DNA of 64,000 bases from Liolophura sinensis (Eukaryota > Mollusca > Polyplacophora > Chitonida > Chitonidae): NCBI RefSeq assembly GCF_032854445.1, contig NC_088300.1, positions 56,208,984 to 56,272,983 of the forward strand, read 5' to 3'. The notes beneath the pieces are model-generated. The model made no database searches, had not been told where the DNA came from, and worked only from the letters and a program-made list of their open reading frames with translations. Shown one piece after another: positions 6,260-24,390 of this stretch (its first letter is position 1; the number at the start of each line of letters is the position of its first letter). Position numbers and translations under genes: made by a program.

Positions 6260-9200
6260 ATGATGTCACAGCCAACATTTAAGCATTGAGAAAAATGCAT
6301 TCTTTGTCTCCTAATATGAAAATACAAGACCTTACATTATTTTCATCTTTACCAGCACTGGTAGTAAAATAATCTTACAAAACTCTTGAAGGACTCACAC
6401 TACTCCTTTAACATTTTGACTCCCACTCATCTGGAGAAAGGAAATGAGGGAAATAAAAAAAATGGTTGTTAGAAACAAAAAAGGTTAAACACCATTTAAA
6501 ATCATGCTTTCTTATCAGGTAACTGGTGAGGGTCAGTGTTTCACTTGGCCCTCATCATATAGGTAAATTAGTCTGAAGTAAGGTATTAAATATCAATCAA
6601 ATAAGTAAGTAAATAAATACTTTCCAACGACAGGCTAAAACTTCTACACTGACCACTGATGTCAATGGCATTCTTTCACCTATCTCTGATGCAATACCTC
6701 CACTTACTCTGAAACCGAGCTCTAAACATTACATCAAATGAAGCTAAAAAGATAATTCCTGGTCTAACAAGACAGTATGTTGGATACTTACATAAACTTG
6801 GCATGGTATAATGGAAATCTGCTTTGCCTCACAAAAATTAACTCTTATTATTAAAAAGCAGGGTTACACTACACGCAATAAGAGGAGGAAAATTTCCTCT
6901 AAAAGGCAAACATACATGTGAGCAGTAAAAATCAATGTTGATCAAATGTCAACGCAGATCAGCTACAGCTGCAAATAGAAAGAAATCATCATCCCAATAA
7001 TTCTTAAAATAAACAACTTGTTCCACTTAAAGGAGATTACCTGATGAAGAAGTTATACAGAGATAAAAAAAAGTAAATGTAGATATGAAATATGTGGGCA
7101 AGAATTTGAAAATCTTCTTTCCAAAACAACCTGTTTTGTAGATGAAGTTGATAAGCAAAACACACATGATATTTGTATCATGATCAACAAACGCATACAT
7201 ATCAAAATATAAAAACGTGGAGATAAACCCATAGAAATAAATTAATCACCAACAACAATCTCATCTCAGCAGTTCATATTCTGGAACTGTGACTTGTAAT
7301 TATCAGCTGTCCTCATATACTTTTGCAGGTTTGGATTTTAAACTCAGCTGTTTATACTATATGCCTCCATTGGCCTCAAAACACCATGGGGCACACTGAT
7401 GGCCCAATCTTTGGGCAGCTACTGCATGGCCATCTTGGCCACATGCTTTGGCCATGACATGAGCTCATGATGCCCCACAACTCCATATCAGTCGAAATGT
7501 TGAACTGTATGTATTTTCCAACAGTCACACAGACTTGTTCAACAACTGTCCCAAAGAAGGAAGACTGGTGTATCTTGGGACATCCAGCTGTCACGACCTC
7601 CACAGACTGGACATGTGGACACATCCGCCTGTGTGTGACCACTACTGTGGCCATTGTTTACCCAGCAGTTGTCCACCAACTATCATGTTGGTGGTCTCTC
7701 TAAGAAGACTGGTGAGTCGGATTTCAGGTGACAACCATATTTCTGCCATAAATCTATGGCTTTATTCACAAGGATGTCCCCTGTGTCCTCAGATATCTAC
7801 AAGCATGAAAGAAAAAAAAAATTTAGTATAAACAAGACACACAGTGCTGTGGATAGTTTCTTTCAAAACATAGGAGAATACATAGCATCACAGCCAAATG
7901 ACCTGTTTCAGACATAAAAAACAGATCCCTATAAAATATTAAGATGGGCCATAAAAAACAATAAGCAATCATATTTTCAAGACAATTATGTTAAGGAAAA
8001 TAATTTTTACTCAATACGTCAAACCACTCTGTGGTGGAAGTTTCAAAAAGAACTGGTGAGATAATCTAGGCCATCATAATAACATATGTTTCTCCTACAG
8101 ACAAAATGGCATTTTTGAAGATGTGATACTGGTACTACATGTACTACAAGGTAATGTAAAAATAAGGCCTCTGAACTGCACGCACTATATCCATAAAAAG
8201 GGTCTTAATTTACCACTTTAATCATAAAAAGGCTGCAAATTTAGCATATGTACAAAATAAAAATGACATTCCAAGTGTCTTTACAAAACTAAAATCAATT
8301 AAGTGTCTTTAGTACAAAGGTATGTGTGTATGCTTGGGGTTTGACATGTCTCACCTTACCATGTGAAGAATTAAAAGAATGCAAACATTTCATGGGAGAG
8401 TGACCTCAAGGGAGTTAAAGGAGAAGAAAATTTAAATATCAATCAAATACATTTGAATAGAGTATGGATTTCCTCGCAGGTGCATGCCATAAAAAAAATT
8501 CTAATATGTAGCTCAAGTTGATAAATTATAAATAAAGTCAGCGCCAAAATCCGCTGTGGGCGTCACCATTTTGCCTAAGAACTAGTCTTGAAGTCTTCTG
8601 TGGTAGGAGGAGAATTGCTGTCGGAAACCACCGAAGTACAAATCGTAAATTTCCAGTGGAGCTCTTCTTCCCAGAAGGTAGTGAACAGTACAGTTTGTTT
8701 TCCACTTGACGATCGGGAAACCAGAATGTTGGACGTAGGTTTCGAGTTTACACGAACAAGCCGCCAGTTTTAATGACTCTCATTGGCTGAGAGGCAACAC
8801 ACCCCCAGCATAAATTACAGGGTGTTAAAAATGGAGGATGTGATGGACTCAGTGATTTATGCCAGCTTTAGCGTTTTCAGGTTTTGTATGGCGAGGAAAA
8901 ATCGCAAAATGATGCAGCAGGCACCAGCAGATAGAAAAAAAATGTGCTCTTTTGAGCCTGTAGTGTCATATATTTAACTTTGCTTCTCCTTTAATTTGGT
9001 ACAACTCACTGCTTGAACAACCACAGCCACTTACATTACACATTATTTTAGAGGCACTGTAAAATGACTGTGGTTGATGTCCCAGAAGTGTGTTGATTAC
9101 ATAGACCAGACATTGACAGAAATGCTGGTTACCATGAAGAATGTCAGAGCAGGGAGTTGTAAAACATGCAAAAAATAATTGCATCCCTTCTATTTCTTAC
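6260..9200. other. Region downstream of TBC1D7, probably holding its last exon and 3' UTR
   Basis: TBC1D7 exon 5 ends at 9201 with a good minus-strand GT donor, so at least one more exon should lie here. I could not identify it with confidence. A weak candidate lies near 7265-7325 on the minus strand: an AG, then about 17 codons, then a stop, but with a poor pyrimidine tract and little similarity. The 7380-7700 stretch is more GC-rich and contains short inverted 'ggcca/tggcc' motifs but no recognisable product. Confidence 0.35.
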
Positions 9201-14064: not shown

Positions 14065-17000
14065 ATGTCGAAGAAGGCGGAGAGCAGCCCGCCGAAGGCC
14101 CTAATTTTAAATGGGGGCGAGGACTTTGTGGGCAAATCCCGGCCGGCAGTCGAGCTTTCCAGGGCCTTGCAAAAGACTATGCTGAGGTATCACTATATTT
14201 TCGTTGATACAGGAACGATGTATGTAAGCTTTAAGAGTCACCCAGGGCTTAGGGTCCTCTAACTCTGACACTCAAATAGTAATGATTATTGACCCAGATT
14301 TTAGTACATCGTTCATGTAGCTGGAACAGCGGGTCAGAAGTTTGACCTGTTATATGACAAGTGCAGTGACCGCTGTCAGTACACACTGAAGCAGCACAGC
14401 CACAGAGTCGGTATCACTGTGAGCTGAGTGATATACGGTCAATGAACTGACCGAAGGGCCAAACTGTATAGGCCTAGCCGTGGAATTTCTTCCAGTATCA
14501 ATCGTGCAGCCTTGCCGGTCGTTCTTAGCGATCCGCCAGTTAGTGGCTGGCAAGTTAAACACACACCTGATGTGTGCATCATTACGTGAATATATCTAAA
14601 TATCATTATCAGACGTGCTGAATACATAGCTGTGTGTAATAATTCAGTGTATCATTTTAAATTTTTGTCAGCCGCATCAAATACCAATGAAAGTGAAAGG
14701 ATAGTACTGGTACTGTATGTTTGAATTTATTGAAGTTAATCAAAAATCTTATGTCAACATTTTTGATTTTTTTTTAAGCCAGTATGTTACCAAGATTAAG
14801 TTTAATCTGTTGAAACTTTTCTTGTATAAACTAAGTATTGGAAAAGTTAACATCACTACAGTATGTATTTTTTTCAACTGTGATTTTGTTATTTTTGACA
14901 TGAAGTTCAAAAGGTTGCTGTTTCCATCTGTTTGAGAAAAATTCTGAGTTTTGTTTTGACTGTATTAAACCATGTAGAGTACCAGCACCATGGGGTAGCA
15001 AGTAAGTTTATTTACAGCACTGTTGATGATATAAAGCAGGGCCACAATTGGAGCCATTTTAGTTCTGGAAAATGTTTGGGCTCTTTCATTCACTGACTGA
15101 AAAACTCTCAGAAAAGATCATCTTGAGTTGCATTTTATCAAATATCTATATGTACGGTTACAATGTCACCTTTAAGTCAAGGTTTGTGATCAGAACCTTC
15201 AATTTATTTTCTGTATGTCATTTGTCAAGTTTTACAACACTATTCCTATAACCTCTATTCTGCAGAATGTTTTGCCATTTTTATTTTGTCTGTTGGTGGA
15301 CAGATTGAAGGGAGAATGTATGGATGAGGATGGGAAGAAGATTCACTATGATCAGCTCACAGCCTTTCCAGTTTTCTCAGAGTACAAGAAATTGGCATTG
15401 GAACTACAGAAAACAAGCCTGGAGGGGATGTCCGAGGATGAGAGGAAGGTCTTCTTCATCAGTATCTCTTTAAACAGGATTTTGTAGTCTTTATGGCTAG
15501 GTTATGGCTTCATTTTTCCAACAGGTACATATCTGGGACGTGGGGTTTGGTGGTATGAAACAGATTCTGTGCTGGTTTTAATCTGAATGCTGTCATGAAA
15601 GTGAAATAATCTATAAAGTACAATGTAGAGCCAAAATTTTTCATCACCTAATTCACCCTAATTCCTCAACGGTTTCACTTATGAAAGAACAATTTTCAAT
15701 ACGAAAGACCTTTTCAGTATGACTGTCGAGAAAGAACTACGTTAGTTACATTGACCAAATTCGGTGTGATTGCCAAGTCCACTCCCCTCCCCCCAGTATT
15801 TGTGTACGAGGGAATATTTGATCCGGCAAGAAATGCAAAGTGTACATTGTAGTGCCTCGTCCCCAGTTTCAGTTCTTCTGCAATTACTGCACTATTGAAA
15901 TGAAAAACAAAAACTAGGCAAGAATCATAACTTCTTGAAACAGATTAATTGCCTACATGAATTAGTCTTAATTACTTATATACAGCTTTGTCTAGCTAAA
16001 ATACACAACAAATACACAGCTTTGGTATGCTGAGTATACCTTACATTTTAGAGCAAGATTCTCTTTGGTTTCACAAATAACACAAAGAAAGTGTTCTAAA
16101 CTCTTTATTTCCTCAAGGTCAGTTAAGACTGTTTAATGAAGGCTTTTAGAGGGAAATGGTGAAAAAATTCGCCAAATATGCTGACCTGTATCAGTTATAT
16201 TGAAGTCGGGGTCCAAGCTTTTAAACTACCAGCCCTATTGTTAGACATGGATTCACCACTTGTCTAATTTCTGGACTATTTCAATATTTTAATTTTTTTA
16301 TCAGTTTTATATGGCTTTTAGATCCCACTTTGTGGGGAACCAGTTAACTTTGAATAGATGACTAGTCCATATGGCAATTTAGCGTTGCTGAGCTAGGTGG
16401 CCCCTGGACCCTTGCCTGATATCTTGGGACACATTGACACATTGGTGTGCTGTAAGTCACTTCACACTTTAAATGGATTTTCTTGTGTACTTTATGGATA
16501 GATAAGTTAGGACCACATGTCATTCAACTTTAATAGGTACAATACATGTAGAACTATATATAAGATAGTACTAAGTACATTCCACTACAAGGGAAAACAT
16601 ATTTTTGAAACCATGTGAAAACCCTCCTCCCCCCCACCAAAAAAAAAGTCAGTTTTTGCCCAGGTTAATCATGTACATGCAAGTAAGTTAATGACATATA
16701 CAGAAAGTCAGATAAATACACATAAATGAATTACACTGGGCAGATTTTTTTTTTGTAATTGCCTTCTATTTTGGTTTGGTCTTAAAGCAATGAATTAAAA
16801 ATCGCAAATTATAATGTCTGGTAACAGATTTTTCATCTGGTATTAAGAAGAGGGAATTTCGAGTAACACTTCATTCCTTGAAATTAATGGAGCAGAGTGC
16901 CGTTATTTCTGCATGCTCAACAACACAGATTTGTTACTCAGTGACATGGTCCACTGTTGTTTGTTCAGGTGTGAGAACCGAGAACGCTTTGCGATTTATC

Positions 17001-19954
17001 AGTTTAAATTGTTCAGCTGATACCTGCTGTGTGTCATATTTAATGACCACCAATTCATGTCGTGTAGTAGTGTGCCAATTGCTCCAGTCCTTAAATGTAA
17101 TGTAGTGATGTACATGTAACAATAGTTTGACGTCATAGGTGAGTTTTAAGAGCATAGCTGGGGTTTTAGTTAGCCTTGTATAGCAGTTTTTGATTTAATA
17201 TTAATTCCTTAACCCTGTGTATATGTATACAATGCACTGACTATTCATGGCCTGGCTGATATGACAGAGAAGGGAGGGGAAATCCCATCCTCAGTGTTGG
17301 ATATCCAGCAGTTCTGGATGAGGGTGTCGTACAAGATAGCGGGTATGGTGTACTCCCTGGATGACATAGAGCATGGAATTCTCAGAGGTAAGCTACGGTT
17401 TTATTTGTACACATTTGTGTACAGAACCAAGCAGGGTGAAGGTTCTTTATGGCATACCAGTACATGTAGTCCATAACCGGTGCACCTTTGTTGTGAAGAT
17501 CTAGAATTTCTATGCCATTCCATTATTGGTTTGCTTGCATGTACGTGTGCCTTTTGTGAAAGTGGACATTGCAGTGATCAGCGGATATAGGAATTAGCCA
17601 AGTTTAACCTTCGACAGTTTATCAATTCCCAACACTATTTCACACTACACTATAGGCAAATCATTGGCAAGCTGATAATAGCACACCACCAGAATGCCTT
17701 AGAACTCTTTTTCTGTTCTGTATTCTAATTGTTTTAATTTTTCTTCAATCAAAACCATGTTTGACATATCTGATCCATTGTGCTCAGTCAGCTGAGGTTA
17801 ATGCCATTTTAAGCATACATGTTGTATTATGTCAACGTTATAAACATAAGTGTATTGGCAAAATGGTGGTGGAGTTATACACCTTTACGATGTCCCATTG
17901 TTTGGTGCAGCTAACGCTGAAGGGTATTATTTCAAGATGAGACCTCACGTTTTGTTTAGTCTCCTTAAATTATTCTATTCATGTATGTCTTTGTTCCAAT
18001 ATCTATTTTTGTGAAAGAGAGTGTGAGCTACAAAATTTAGAGCATAGCGTCTATTGTTCAATTGATTTCAGCCAATCGCCCTCACCCTTCATCAACAACA
18101 CCTCCATTTGGTAAAGACGATCCCAGATTGAAGTTTTCTTTAAGTAAACTTGATCCCAGAGTCCATTTTGCTCTAGTCTGTGGTGCCAAGGTGAGATAAC
18201 TCTTACACCATCTCTTAATAGACTTAGAGCTCTGTACCTGTTGAAGATTCTGTTCGTATATTGGCATTCTTCAAATAGCACCAGAGTAAACTTATTAAAT
18301 CTTTTGTACCTTTGCTTATGCAGTGGCACTGAGTTTTCCTTTAATCTATAGCCTGTGGCAGTGTCATTGAAATAAAATTTCAAACATTCAATTATGCTTT
18401 AACAATCCCCCCAAAAGTGAGTTTTTCATTGTTTTCTGAAACCATCACCACATTATGAATTGTTTTATATTTGGTTAATACTTAATTGCCAAATTCATTT
18501 AGCTGTTAATGTTATCAGCCCTGTGTAAATGTATCCACCTTTAATGTAAAATGTATCTTTCTTGCAAAATCTTAATCTCCAAGTATTGTTTGTAATCTCC
18601 AGGAGTCAATTGTTCAAAAGTGTATTAAGAGTTAAGCCAGGCTTATATCTTAAGACGTACATGGGAAGGTCTGTCAGCAACCTGCAGATGGTCGTGGGTT
18701 TCCCCCGGGCTCTGCCTGGTTTCCTCCCACCATAATACAGGCTACTGTCGTATAAGTGAAATATTCTTGAGTACGGCGTAAAACACCAATCAAATAAATC
18801 AAATAAATATATCTTAATACCTTCCTTATTCTAATACAAAACAAAGTGGAATTAAGTCTGGACTAAATACCAGGCTTTACTGCTAATACGCTTTTGAAAA
18901 AATGTGCACAAGATAGTAGAAAGGATTTAAAGAACTGCTTGCTTTCTTATTCTGGGTAGTTCACCATTTTTCCACTCTCTTGGTTTCAGTCTTGCCCAGC
19001 TATAAATGTGTATTCAGCCAGTAACCTGGATGCTGCACTCACCGCAGCCACCAAGAACTTCTGTAGGCAGGAGGTGATGATGATCCTGGAAACAGAGGAA
19101 ATCTGGCTGTCCAAGATCTTCCAGTGGTACAGCAGTGACTTTGGCTTTACCGATATAGATGTCATCAGGTATGCAGACATTTAATTTATAAGTGAACCAG
19201 GTAACGAAGTGGGTGGAGATAGGTGTCCTGTAACTCAGTTTGTTTTGTGTTTAATGTGGCAAGCCAGATACAGTGTATAAATTGCATGCATGTTACATGG
19301 TTAGATTTGAAGGTGAAGTGCATGACTGGTATATTAGTCTAAATGACCTAAAGATTCAACAACAAAAGAGCTCTTTTGGAGGCAAATAATTGTCATGAGA
19401 TATTACTTCCGGTGCTACAATTTACTTTTTATCAGTAGGATATCATCCTACCTTTCTAACACCTCTCAAAAAACACCTTTCTAAATCAATAGAACTCCTA
19501 GAATGTGAAAAAAATGAACAACTTAGTCATGAACGAAATTTTAGGTCATTAGGGTACTGTATGTTTGGGGCAGGAAGGGGTCAGTCATCAGCCAACTCCC
19601 ACTACATTGTCTCATCTGCTGGCTGGGATTGTTGCTGGGTTAACAGTCATATGTGTCACTAGTCTTTGCTTTTGTTTTATGCTCTGACTGTATATTTCTA
19701 TGTGTTCAGTAATGTAAATGTGCTCAATTATTATTATTATTATTATTCTTGTAGGTGAGATTATTAGGTGAGGTTTAGACAGGATGTACATAGCCATGAT
19801 ATATTGTCATTTTTGCCCTTATTTGAGGTGGACGATCCCGTACCTAGATGAAGATCAGCAGGAGAAGGGAGAGTTGCTATTGTACAAGTTAGAGTCATTG
19901 GGGAAGGTAGACATCAAGTACAACCCCTATGACTGGAGCCTGAACAAAAGCTGA
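14065..19954 (+). CDS. DUF547 domain protein (289 aa, complete)
   Basis: Six plus-strand exons: 14065-14186, 15304-15461, 17223-17387, 18072-18190, 18990-19168 and 19828-19954 (870 nt including TGA, phases consistent). Recognisable DUF547 blocks are MLRLKGECMDEDGKKIHYDQ (exon 1/2 junction), MSEDERKVFFINVYNALTIH (exon 2/3 junction), IQQFWMRVSYKIAGMVYSLD, LDPRVHFALVCGAKSCPAIN (exon 4/5) and DIDVIRWTIPYLDE. No signal peptide or membrane segment is seen. The biochemical function of DUF547 is not established, so none is assigned. The start ATG opens the conserved N-terminal block (FVGKSRPAVELSRALQ). Four introns are GT-AG; intron 2 (15462-17222) is not, see its own entry. The gene is divergent from TBC1D7. 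A possible AATAAA lies far downstream at 22417, but the 3' end is undetermined. Confidence 0.9.
15462..17222 (+). other. Probable U12-type intron with GT-AT termini (DUF547 intron 2)
   Basis: The donor is atca|gtatctcttt, close to the U12 donor consensus (GTATCCTTT). Seventeen bases before the deduced acceptor is 'ttccttaac' (17205-17213), a perfect match to the U12 branch-point consensus. The exon must resume at 17223 to restore the conserved FFI-N-VYNAL motif in phase 1, and the two preceding intron bases are AT, not AG or AC. No AG lies between the branch point and the exon, and an in-frame TAA at 17209 blocks any upstream start. Confidence 0.65.
18655..18811 (+). mobile_element. SINE family 1, 5' truncated, in DUF547 intron 4
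   Basis: Carries the family core 'cagcaacctgcagatggtcg' and the tail 'gtgaaatattcttgagtacg' plus 'caccaatcaaataaat'. The tRNA-like head is missing. Confidence 0.8.
19729..19750. repeat. (ATT)n microsatellite
   Basis: A short run of about six 'att' units within DUF547 intron 5. Confidence 0.8.
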
Positions 19955-22900
19955 TTGACGCATATCCTATCTGACCGGCCTGGGCTCTCCTCTATATGCA
20001 AGTCTGCAGATCTTGCCACAAGCACCCTCTGGCATTTACGCACTTCCATAAGTATTTAACTTAATATGCATTTACATTCACCTTTATTTTAAAGCATGTG
20101 TATGAACTGAACATCCTGTCAGTGAATATATATTCGGAGGTTGTTAAGAGTTAGCTCCCTGATAATGTTGTGTTTCTTTGACATTGGCGGTAAAACTATT
20201 GGGTTGCTCAATTAAATGGAGGGGTAATGTCGAAGTCTATCAAATAACAAGCCATGTCACGTAGGTGGCGGTAAATTTTAACATAAAAACTGTTATTTAA
20301 ACCTTAGCGCCATCTGGTAGCTGGAAGGGCAGACAGGCAATGTGATGGTTATTTGATAGGCTCTGAGTGTGAGTCGTGTTTTCAGATGTTTTCTACCTCC
20401 TATTTTAAAGAACTCTAACAGCTTACCCAGCCTCTGCATTGTTGACATGGTTTCATGTGCAAGCGTTGGTGTTCACAGTAGTTTTCTGTACTTCATGCCA
20501 TTGTGGCTGTAGTATACCAGCTGCTTGTTACGTACTGTGTCAGTAGCCTATATTTTTCAGATACTATAAGTAATGTAGGCTTTAAAGGCTGCTGCATATC
20601 TTTATGATTCTGTTACAGTGAAAGTACCTACTGCCATTAAGTCCTAACATCTATTGACAACCTGCCTTTCAGATTCCCCATGCTGATTTGTCACATGCTT
20701 AACTGTGCAGGAGACAACTCTAGCAGCTTCTTTATATCGTCTTATCATGTGATAAGCATAGGTTCAGTGAATGGTGAGTTTTACAGAACTCATGATGGTA
20801 GTCAGTCAAAATATTTTCAAAAGTTAGAATTAGAGTGCTTTTGCTGCATTCTGGGTTTTCACCTCTTTATATTTAACGAAGATCGTTAGCCTGATTCAGT
20901 GATTTGAGTCCGGGTGAAGTATGGCTTGCTGCAGATGTCGCTAGATATAAATACAACTGTTAACCCAGTGTCTCCAATCCTCCTATTTTCGTACTGGTTC
21001 TTCATACTATCTGCTCAATAACCTGTCCATATTTGGTTGGGTCCAGTTGTTGCAGTTTTGAAACAAATTGTATTAAATGTTTATCATTTGGTTGTGTTAC
21101 AAAAGTACCATCTTTCTTCTGATGTGATTGTTTTCAAAATCTATCAGTCACAGTTTTAGTAGTATTTAAATGTTTTTTTAGTCTGTTGTGCAATATTTGG
21201 TTTTATAGCACAAAATTATATTGAAGTACAAAACTTTGTACTTCTTTGGTATGTAGCCATAACTCTTACTTTTAGAGCAATAGCACATCTGTGAAAGTTC
21301 ATAAATCAGGATTAAATATTGCTACATACACCTCTTCCATACTTAAGGTTTTCCTATGTCTAGGTGGACAAAATAATAAAAAAACCCCAAAACATATGGT
21401 TTACACACTACAAATTTATCTTTGTGCTACAAGCTCATAAAGGCTTTAGACACTGGTCATTATTGTGGAATTAGGATCATTTCAGTTAACCGAGAGACTG
21501 GGTGATATGAGATGCAGTCCTTTTTGGTCTCGATTTGTGATTAAGAGTTATAACATGCTATGTTACTCCAACTTCAATACCAAGTGACACTTTGAATGAC
21601 CATGTTTGCCTTTGGTGCTGTCTCAATATTTGTTATATACATATGTATACTTGAGTGTTCTATCTTTTATACAAGTTTTTGTTGATGGGAATCTTGATGG
21701 TAATGCATGTATATTCTTGAAATGTTCAGGTTTTTCAGTATTTATGGTGTTCATGTAGTTTATAAATTCTTATTGTGATCACTATTCCTTTGGATCTTTT
21801 TATGAAAGGAACATTTCCATTTTATAATTCTGGAACAGTTTGTATAAATGTCCTGTCTTTCAGTGGATATTGTGTATATGAAGGTCATATTTCAGAAAAG
21901 CGTTAGGCAACACATATGCATTGAACTGGCATATCGAATTGATTGTGGATTACTTTGACTTTAAAATTCATGAAGAAGAATGAAGAGGAAAAGTTTCCAT
22001 CTATTGTTTTGAGTTTTTATGAAACAGATGCTTTGTAAACCTCTGGTTCCAGGCTTCATGCTAGTTGGTCATGAGTTGCGCCCACCATAATGCTGGATGT
22101 CTTGGTATAAGTGAAATATTGTTGAGTACGCAATAAAAGTCCATCAAATAAATAAATAGTTTCTTTTCAAGGCATTGTTTTTGCTATTGTACATTTTATG
22201 TTCTTTTTATATTATCAGATTAGTGTCGTCAAAGTCCAAGTGTTAAGATATTCTGTGTAGAAGACATAGAATCAGTTGCATATACTGTAAAGTGTAAGCC
22301 ATATAAAGATGATTCATTATGCATTGCGATCACTAATAGTTAAAGCAAATTATATAAAACTACCTCTTGTTGTGAGCAGATTATTTATTTATTTATGTTT
22401 GAAAGAAACTTCATGAAATAAAATTAATGTAGATTTTCTATCAGACAGATGTGATATTTGCGTTTCGATGCGTTTCAGTTGTCAGTCATACCCATGGGCG
22501 TGGTTCCTTAGGTCTTCTTAAAATTTTCACATTATACTTGAAAGATGGTGCATAAATGTTAATTAAGATTTTAAATTAATTGTTCTTTTAATGTTAAGAC
22601 TATAAAGGCTCAACTGTTGGAATAGCTCAACTTATTTTTGATTGTTAGGCTTCAAAATCTGAAAGTCTGTTGTTCTTGCTCAGCTTATTTAAGTTCCTGT
22701 CTTTTTTTTTTTTGTTTTGCTGATTCATAGAAAACCCATTAGTGAGAGATTTGTGTGTAAAACTGTTACACTGGTACTGGTTAAGGAATGCATGAAAAGT
22801 GCAATGGCCATTGAATCCTACAGAAAACCGTAAAAGGTGGCTATTATTAATTAACGTCCTGTATCCAACAATTTTTAAAACAAAAGCCAACAAAAATCAG

Positions 22901-24390
22901 ATGATTAAGATTTCTCCGCCAATGAAGGATGGGGCTAGTTTCACAAAGCACTTCTAGAAATATGGGCATGTATTACAATTTATCATAGTGATGAGCACCT
23001 GAAGCTATGAAAGCTTAGCTACAGTCTGCTACTCAGACAGAACCAAAAAAAAAAAAAAAATCCAAAATTGCCAAATTTGATTGTTTGAAATGTTATACTT
23101 GTGAAAGTGACAATCTGCAAGGTCATGCATTCTCTCTTCAACCTGCCTCTAGGCTTACATGTGAAATACTTCAATCAAGTACAAATTATATAGCGTTTCA
23201 AAATTTGCCAAAAGCCGATATTGTTTATAGTAGTTAATTATGTTCATGCATTTACACGGTATATTGTGCGCTGATGTGAAAATTTGTGAGGCCTCTTATA
23301 TAGTATAGTTAAGGAATTTTTGTTTATCAAAACTGTTCAGTATGTACAACAGTTCCCATATTACTGGATGTTAACAGTGCCATACATGGTTTTACCATAG
23401 CCGAGAAGTAACTGGAGGTCAACCAGAAAGACTCTCAAGTTATTATGCATTGACTGCAGAGAGCCATTGGGATGGTTATAGTTTGTTAAATTTTATCATT
23501 TATACAAATCTGTGTGTGCAACTGTGATGTTCAATAACAGCACCATTCTTTTATGAGCTACATTTTTCACTCTGGCAACTGTTTGCTTTGGAGAGTCATT
23601 TCCATACTAGATGTACTTTAAGAAATCAAATAAAAAATTCAAGGACACAACATTGAATGTGGCTTTTGTGTAGTATCTTCAAGAAATTCTCGGTGGAGAA
23701 GTGCAAGATCTGAGGCCAGTTTCAGAAAGATGTCGTACATGTACAATAATCGCATATATAGGACAATGGTACGGTAATAGTTGCATACAAAATGTCGTAC
23801 AGAGCTTTTTGAACCAGGGCCCAGGTGTATCTGAATGACTGTGGTAAAGTGCCATATCTAAACCAGTTGTTCAAAAGTGTGTAAATAGTTAATGTAGATG
23901 TGTTTGTTGGTCTAAAACAAAACTGAGACTAAACACTTTCATTGCTGTACCAATTTTCAATATTCAATTGCTGTGTTCTATAAACCCATGTGGAAGGCAA
24001 ACCCAGCATTTCTGTACCAAAAGAATTCGGGAACCAACCAGTCCATTCACAGTCTAATATAGAGTCATAGGTTGCAATATCATGTCAGTTGTTACAGAAT
24101 AGCTGGTGTCACTGGTTGCTTGCTTGCAAATGCTGCTTTTGTCCATGTCAGAATCCAAATGCAAACATTTATAGTGCTGACTCACTGGATTGTGAAGGTG
24201 AAGACACTGGGCATGGTACAGAAACCAGGCCAACCAACTAGTACTACATCTATCCCTTATACAAATTATCTAAGCCAGAAATAGACAGTTTTTTGAAACC
24301 ATTGACACATAGCCTCTTCAGGGACTTCTGTCAGTGAAAATCATTAACTCTTACCTTGGGTAACTTGTAAGTGCTTATAACTTGTAAGTG
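19955..24390. other. Long stretch downstream of the DUF547 gene, no further gene seen
   Basis: The first part is presumably 3' UTR of the DUF547 gene; an AATAAA at 22417-22422 is one possible end. Apart from a SINE at 22040-22164 and a poly(A) run near 23044-23060, I see no exon or RNA gene. Confidence 0.4.
22040..22164 (+). mobile_element. SINE family 1 fragment
   Basis: Contains 'cccaccataatgctggatgt', then 'gtataagtgaaatattgttg' and an (aaat)n tail. The upstream core is diverged and the head is missing. Confidence 0.7.

Follow-up and report, generated by a model that had tools for sequence, protein, structure and literature searches.

Of the minor introns conserved in animals, about 3.8% have non-canonical ends, most of them one base away from a canonical pair, and molluscs belong to the animals with relatively many minor introns (PMC10639083). 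Summarising earlier mutational and database work, Parada (2014) stated that a G at the 5′ end of a U12-type intron can splice to a 3′ G or T, with G being preferred (PMC4176328). In the human CENATAC study, GT-AT is listed among the G-type minor introns (PMC8280824). Mixed AT-AG and GT-AC termini are disfavoured, and the optimum distance between branch site and 3′ splice site is 11-13 nt (PMC3584512). For a GT donor, GT-AT is a permitted variant that is uncommon but already documented. An earlier note on the locus described below had called minor introns with ends other than AT-AC or GT-AG rare, which is right as to their frequency; GT-AT itself had been reported before.

Here we describe a candidate of this kind from the chiton Liolophura sinensis. 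The window, a stretch of 64,000 nt from 56208984 to 56272983 of contig C6, contains on its plus strand a DUF547 gene whose six exons give a predicted protein of 289 amino acids with neither stop nor frameshift (Table 1). The Pfam domain DUF547 (PF04784) covers residues 81-212 of this protein with 130.4 bits, against a gathering cut-off of 27. Introns 1, 3, 4 and 5 have GT-AG ends, and intron 2 is probably a real GT-AT minor intron. The earlier note had proposed a U12-type GT-AT intron at this place, and it is still the best-supported reading. A sequence search found no solved structure for DUF547, and a search of the literature on DUF547 introns or on L. japonica minor introns returned nothing relevant.

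Table 1. Coordinates of the predicted DUF547 gene and of the signals of its second intron, as positions in the window.
Feature	Position	Strand	Remarks
Exon 1	14065-14186	+	starts with ATG, ends in phase 2, followed by a GT-AG intron
Exon 2	15304-15461	+	ends ..FFI plus the first base of the Asn codon
Intron 2	15462-17222	+	1,761 nt, GT-AT ends, phase 1, proposed U12-type
Intron 2, 5′ splice site GTATCTCTTT	15462-15471	+	like the consensus GTATCCTTT but with a T added at +6
Intron 2, exact U12-type branch site TTCCTTAAC	17205-17213	+	branch A is 17211 or 17212
Intron 2, 3′ terminal AT	17221-17222	+	from sequence and protein conservation
Exon 3	17223-17387	+	AT (completes Asn), then GTATACAAT, giving N/VYN
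Exon 4	18072-18190	+	GT-AG introns on either side
Exon 5	18990-19168	+	gene model
Exon 6	19828-19954	+	stop codon TGA

Two further elements were seen around this gene. TBC1D7 lies head to head with it on the minus strand, from 13864 to about 9200, and is identified by exons 1 and 2, which match structures of human TBC1D7 (3qwl, E=1.3e-36). Just 200 bp separate the start codons of the two genes, which suggests a bidirectional promoter common to both. Within intron 4, at about 18670-18815, lies what we take to be a SINE-like element; it ends in CAAATAAAT repeats and contains a phrase frequent in mollusc SINEs, and similar pieces appear to lie at the locus of a DUF547 paralogue.

On re-reading of the coordinates, intron 2 ends in CCCTGTGTAT and is followed by ATGTATAC, which places AT at 17221-17222. 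The branch site that the earlier note had called an exact consensus matches at nine of nine positions and complements GUAAGGAA in the U12 snRNAs of the genome. Its second A, at 17212, lies 11 nt from the first exon base at 17223, a spacing correctly placed in the U12 range. It had also been claimed that no AG lies between branch site and exon and that an in-frame TAA excludes earlier starts. Both observations hold: the first AG past the branch site is at 17266-17267, and the TAA at 17210-17212 bars any in-frame exon start farther upstream. The motif TTCCTTRAC is expected 1.26 times on both strands of the 64 kb and was found four times, a number reached by 6 of 100 shuffles. For an exact site that puts its branch A 9-15 nt upstream of a given exon (a 7-nt placement window), the chance is about 7e-5. 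Three other exact matches to TTCCTTAAC occur in the window, at 7990-7998, 22780-22788 and 23308-23316 (minus strand), and none of them was linked to a U12-type intron.

The donor had been read as a second signal of the minor class, but it is not a clean one. Compared to GTATCCTTT, it differs at +6 and +7, which amounts to one inserted T; against RTATCCTTT, the bases GTATC match and are followed by TCTTT, i.e. two mismatches or one inserted T. U11 and U6atac pair best with this donor in a register displaced by 2 nt. Pairing was calculated as duplex energies with the genome's own U11 and U6atac snRNAs. With U6atac the intron 2 donor reaches -6.8 kcal/mol (consensus: -6.5), the donors of the other four introns only -0.7 to -2.7; with U11 it reaches -3.7 compared to -5.3 kcal/mol for the consensus. 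Such pairing is not rare on its own, since 83 of the 7,973 GT-starting 10-mers in the window equal the donor on both snRNAs. No better U12 donor (RTATCC) was found within intron 2.

The position of the junction can be evaluated from the conservation of the protein family. We enumerated all combinations of a last exon base at 15420-15500 with a first exon base at 17180-17300, obtaining 3,267 in-frame junctions, 1,958 of them stop-free, and 1,172 distinct proteins, which were ranked by an HMM for which bacterial homologues were the sole input. The GT-AT junction 15462-17222 came first with 152.4 bits; the next value was 147.7, shared by products that include the AT-AT junction 15464-17224. Pfam DUF547 gives the same order, with 130.4 bits for GT-AT, 123.3 for AT-AT, 108.2 for AT-AC and 97.6 for GT-AG. 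The last three (AT-AT 15464-17224, AT-AC 15464-17230 and GT-AG 15462-17267) are absent from the earlier note, and it is family conservation that ranked them down.

The junction 15461/17223 falls within the family motif N-x-Y-N and splits its Asn codon A/AT. All 78 alignable bacterial homologues have N at this place, and 76 of the 78 have Y at the place of the Tyr two residues further on. Only A/AT keeps the Asn at the junction, because exon 2 ends ATC A/G and GTA is preceded by TAT. The homologues were retrieved with a two-sequence alignment as query. The search pattern built on the N-x-Y motif occurs in none of the 80; a different pattern had brought them in, so the counts for N and Y are not circular. 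With the whole protein as query no bacterial relatives were found, nor were viral relatives of the protein. The paralogue on contig C7 reads FFINIYNALVIH uninterrupted in one exon and lacks a counterpart of intron 2. At that locus (L003 1-1466, near 24709160), a 44-bp unit is repeated within one of the introns in at least 33 copies of 97% identity. A search of intron 2 for a microexon giving N-x-Y before the AC at 17230 (AG plus GT/AT/GC flanks) found none, apart from one trivial 2-nt candidate, AG/AC/AT, at 16243. The predicted exon boundary at 15461/17223 is fixed by conservation, in agreement with the earlier argument from phase 1 and protein similarity for an exon start at 17223.

The genome encodes the RNAs that such an intron would need: U6atac, U12, U11 and U4atac genes score above their gathering thresholds, and there are matches to the U11-48K zinc finger. 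The U12 snRNA is multicopy (L009, L010, L012 and L013 on contig C1; L011 on C12), with three strong copies, two clustered on C1 and one on C12. Two weaker members of the C1 cluster, which score 52-54 bits, may be pseudogenes. U6atac and U11 are present in two copies each.

Among the alternatives, the most serious on RNA grounds is an A-type minor intron that runs from 15464 to 17224 and has AT at either end, because the usual register of donor pairing points to a cut before A15464 and thus favours an AT donor. Canonical-register pairing with the genome's U11 and U6atac fits ATCTCTTT at 15464 (U6atac -7.5 kcal/mol), the 13 nt from branch A to exon likewise fall inside the optimum, and among the non-canonical termini of animal minor introns AT-AT ranks second in frequency (PMC10639083). 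The conservation of the Asn argues against it: the product would read FFISVYNALTIH, with Ser replacing a residue that is N in all 78 homologues and in the paralogue, at a cost of 7.1 bits on the Pfam model. Moreover, the donor would have C at +3 where the consensus has A, and the completion of an Asn codon by A/AT would be a coincidence. We regard this reading as unlikely. Junctions with canonical dinucleotides that keep the frame also exist, namely AT-AC 15464-17230 (FFIS-NALTIH) and a U2-type GT-AG 15462-17267, which loses 15 residues. They strip the N-x-Y motif or more, with losses of 22 and 33 bits on the Pfam model, and the bases they skip still encode the family consensus. In addition, 18-19 nt separate the AC from the branch A, which is past the optimum, and CA/GTATCT is a poor U2 donor; the first AG past the branch site (17267) keeps the frame and deletes the core motif. 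As the main route of splicing these junctions are very improbable, and their products may be minor or non-productive isoforms. GT-AC 15462-17230 was ruled out, as it shifts the frame into a TGA within ten codons.

A different kind of explanation is an assembly error or a minor allele at 17221-17222, or a base lost in the gtgtatatgtata tract, with the usual sequence ending in AG. The published Liolophura japonica assembly rests on only 14x HiFi coverage at 1.24% heterozygosity (PMC11068029), the tract is a TG/TA-rich near-repeat, and a single substitution would lead to GT-AG. The earlier note had implied T-to-C as the route to a canonical end; this change would give GT-AC, which is disfavoured (PMC3584512), and it is T-to-G that gives the canonical GT-AG. 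No second copy or haplotig of the junction was found in the assembly (609,464,459 bases, 632 contigs): both exon regions are single-copy, and the assembly thus speaks neither for nor against a second allele. The remainder of the gene, however, is error-free in frame, and we consider an error or allele quite unlikely. Even less credence can be given to an early pseudogene, either broken or retaining intron 2. The two consensus departures in the splice signals of one intron would fit such decay, but the frame is kept through all six exons, introns 1, 3, 4 and 5 have canonical ends, and the predicted product of 289 aa reaches 130 bits to DUF547, making this reading hardly credible.

We therefore favour, with good but not full confidence, intron 2 as a G-type minor (U12-dependent) intron with T instead of G as its last base, in an intact DUF547 gene. 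Points against it are the donor, which is off consensus at +6/+7 and whose pairing in the canonical register favours an AT donor at 15464, and a possible allele or error at 17222. That the intron is spliced, that the minor spliceosome does so and where exactly it cuts we infer from the sequence elements, the conserved frame and the four snRNA genes present. In the proposed mechanism, the U12 snRNA would pair with TTCCTTAAC and fix the 3′ region as in other minor introns, while the pyrimidine run after GTATC would pair with U11 and then with U6atac. The 3′ cut would fall at 17222/17223, 11 nt past the branch A, because there is no AG or suitably placed AC and the terminal pair G...T is tolerated by U12 introns. 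Its likely origin would be a GT-AG U12-type intron in which the terminal G was lost and a base was added to the donor.

It is conceivable, though we hold it doubtful, that both ends depart from the rule, with an extra donor base, U11 and U6atac pairing 2 nt off, the cut still at GT, and AT at the 3′ end. If true, the minor spliceosome would allow some play in the distance from the U6atac-paired region to the cut. The general picture of minor splicing is unchanged by this intron. A mollusc GT-AT case with an invariant Asn at the boundary nevertheless offers a useful test of drift in the last base and in donor spacing. Mappers restricted to canonical dinucleotides would miss or misplace such an intron, yielding a wrong gene model.

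With the standard GT-AG U12-type introns the chiton intron shares the branch site and the branch-to-exon distance, and it differs from them in its last base, T, and in the one extra T of its donor. The survey by Larue and Roy (2023) found AT-AA and AT-AT to be the commonest non-canonical termini and does not include GT-AT in its main text (PMC10639083), whereas the chiton case is GT-AT. Its closest counterparts are the human GT-AT minor introns (PMC4176328, PMC8280824), which have the same combination of a GT donor, a U12-type branch site and a terminal T for G. The human introns are backed by RNA-seq and mutational data, whereas the chiton intron is a prediction from sequence whose donor leaves the consensus at +6/+7.
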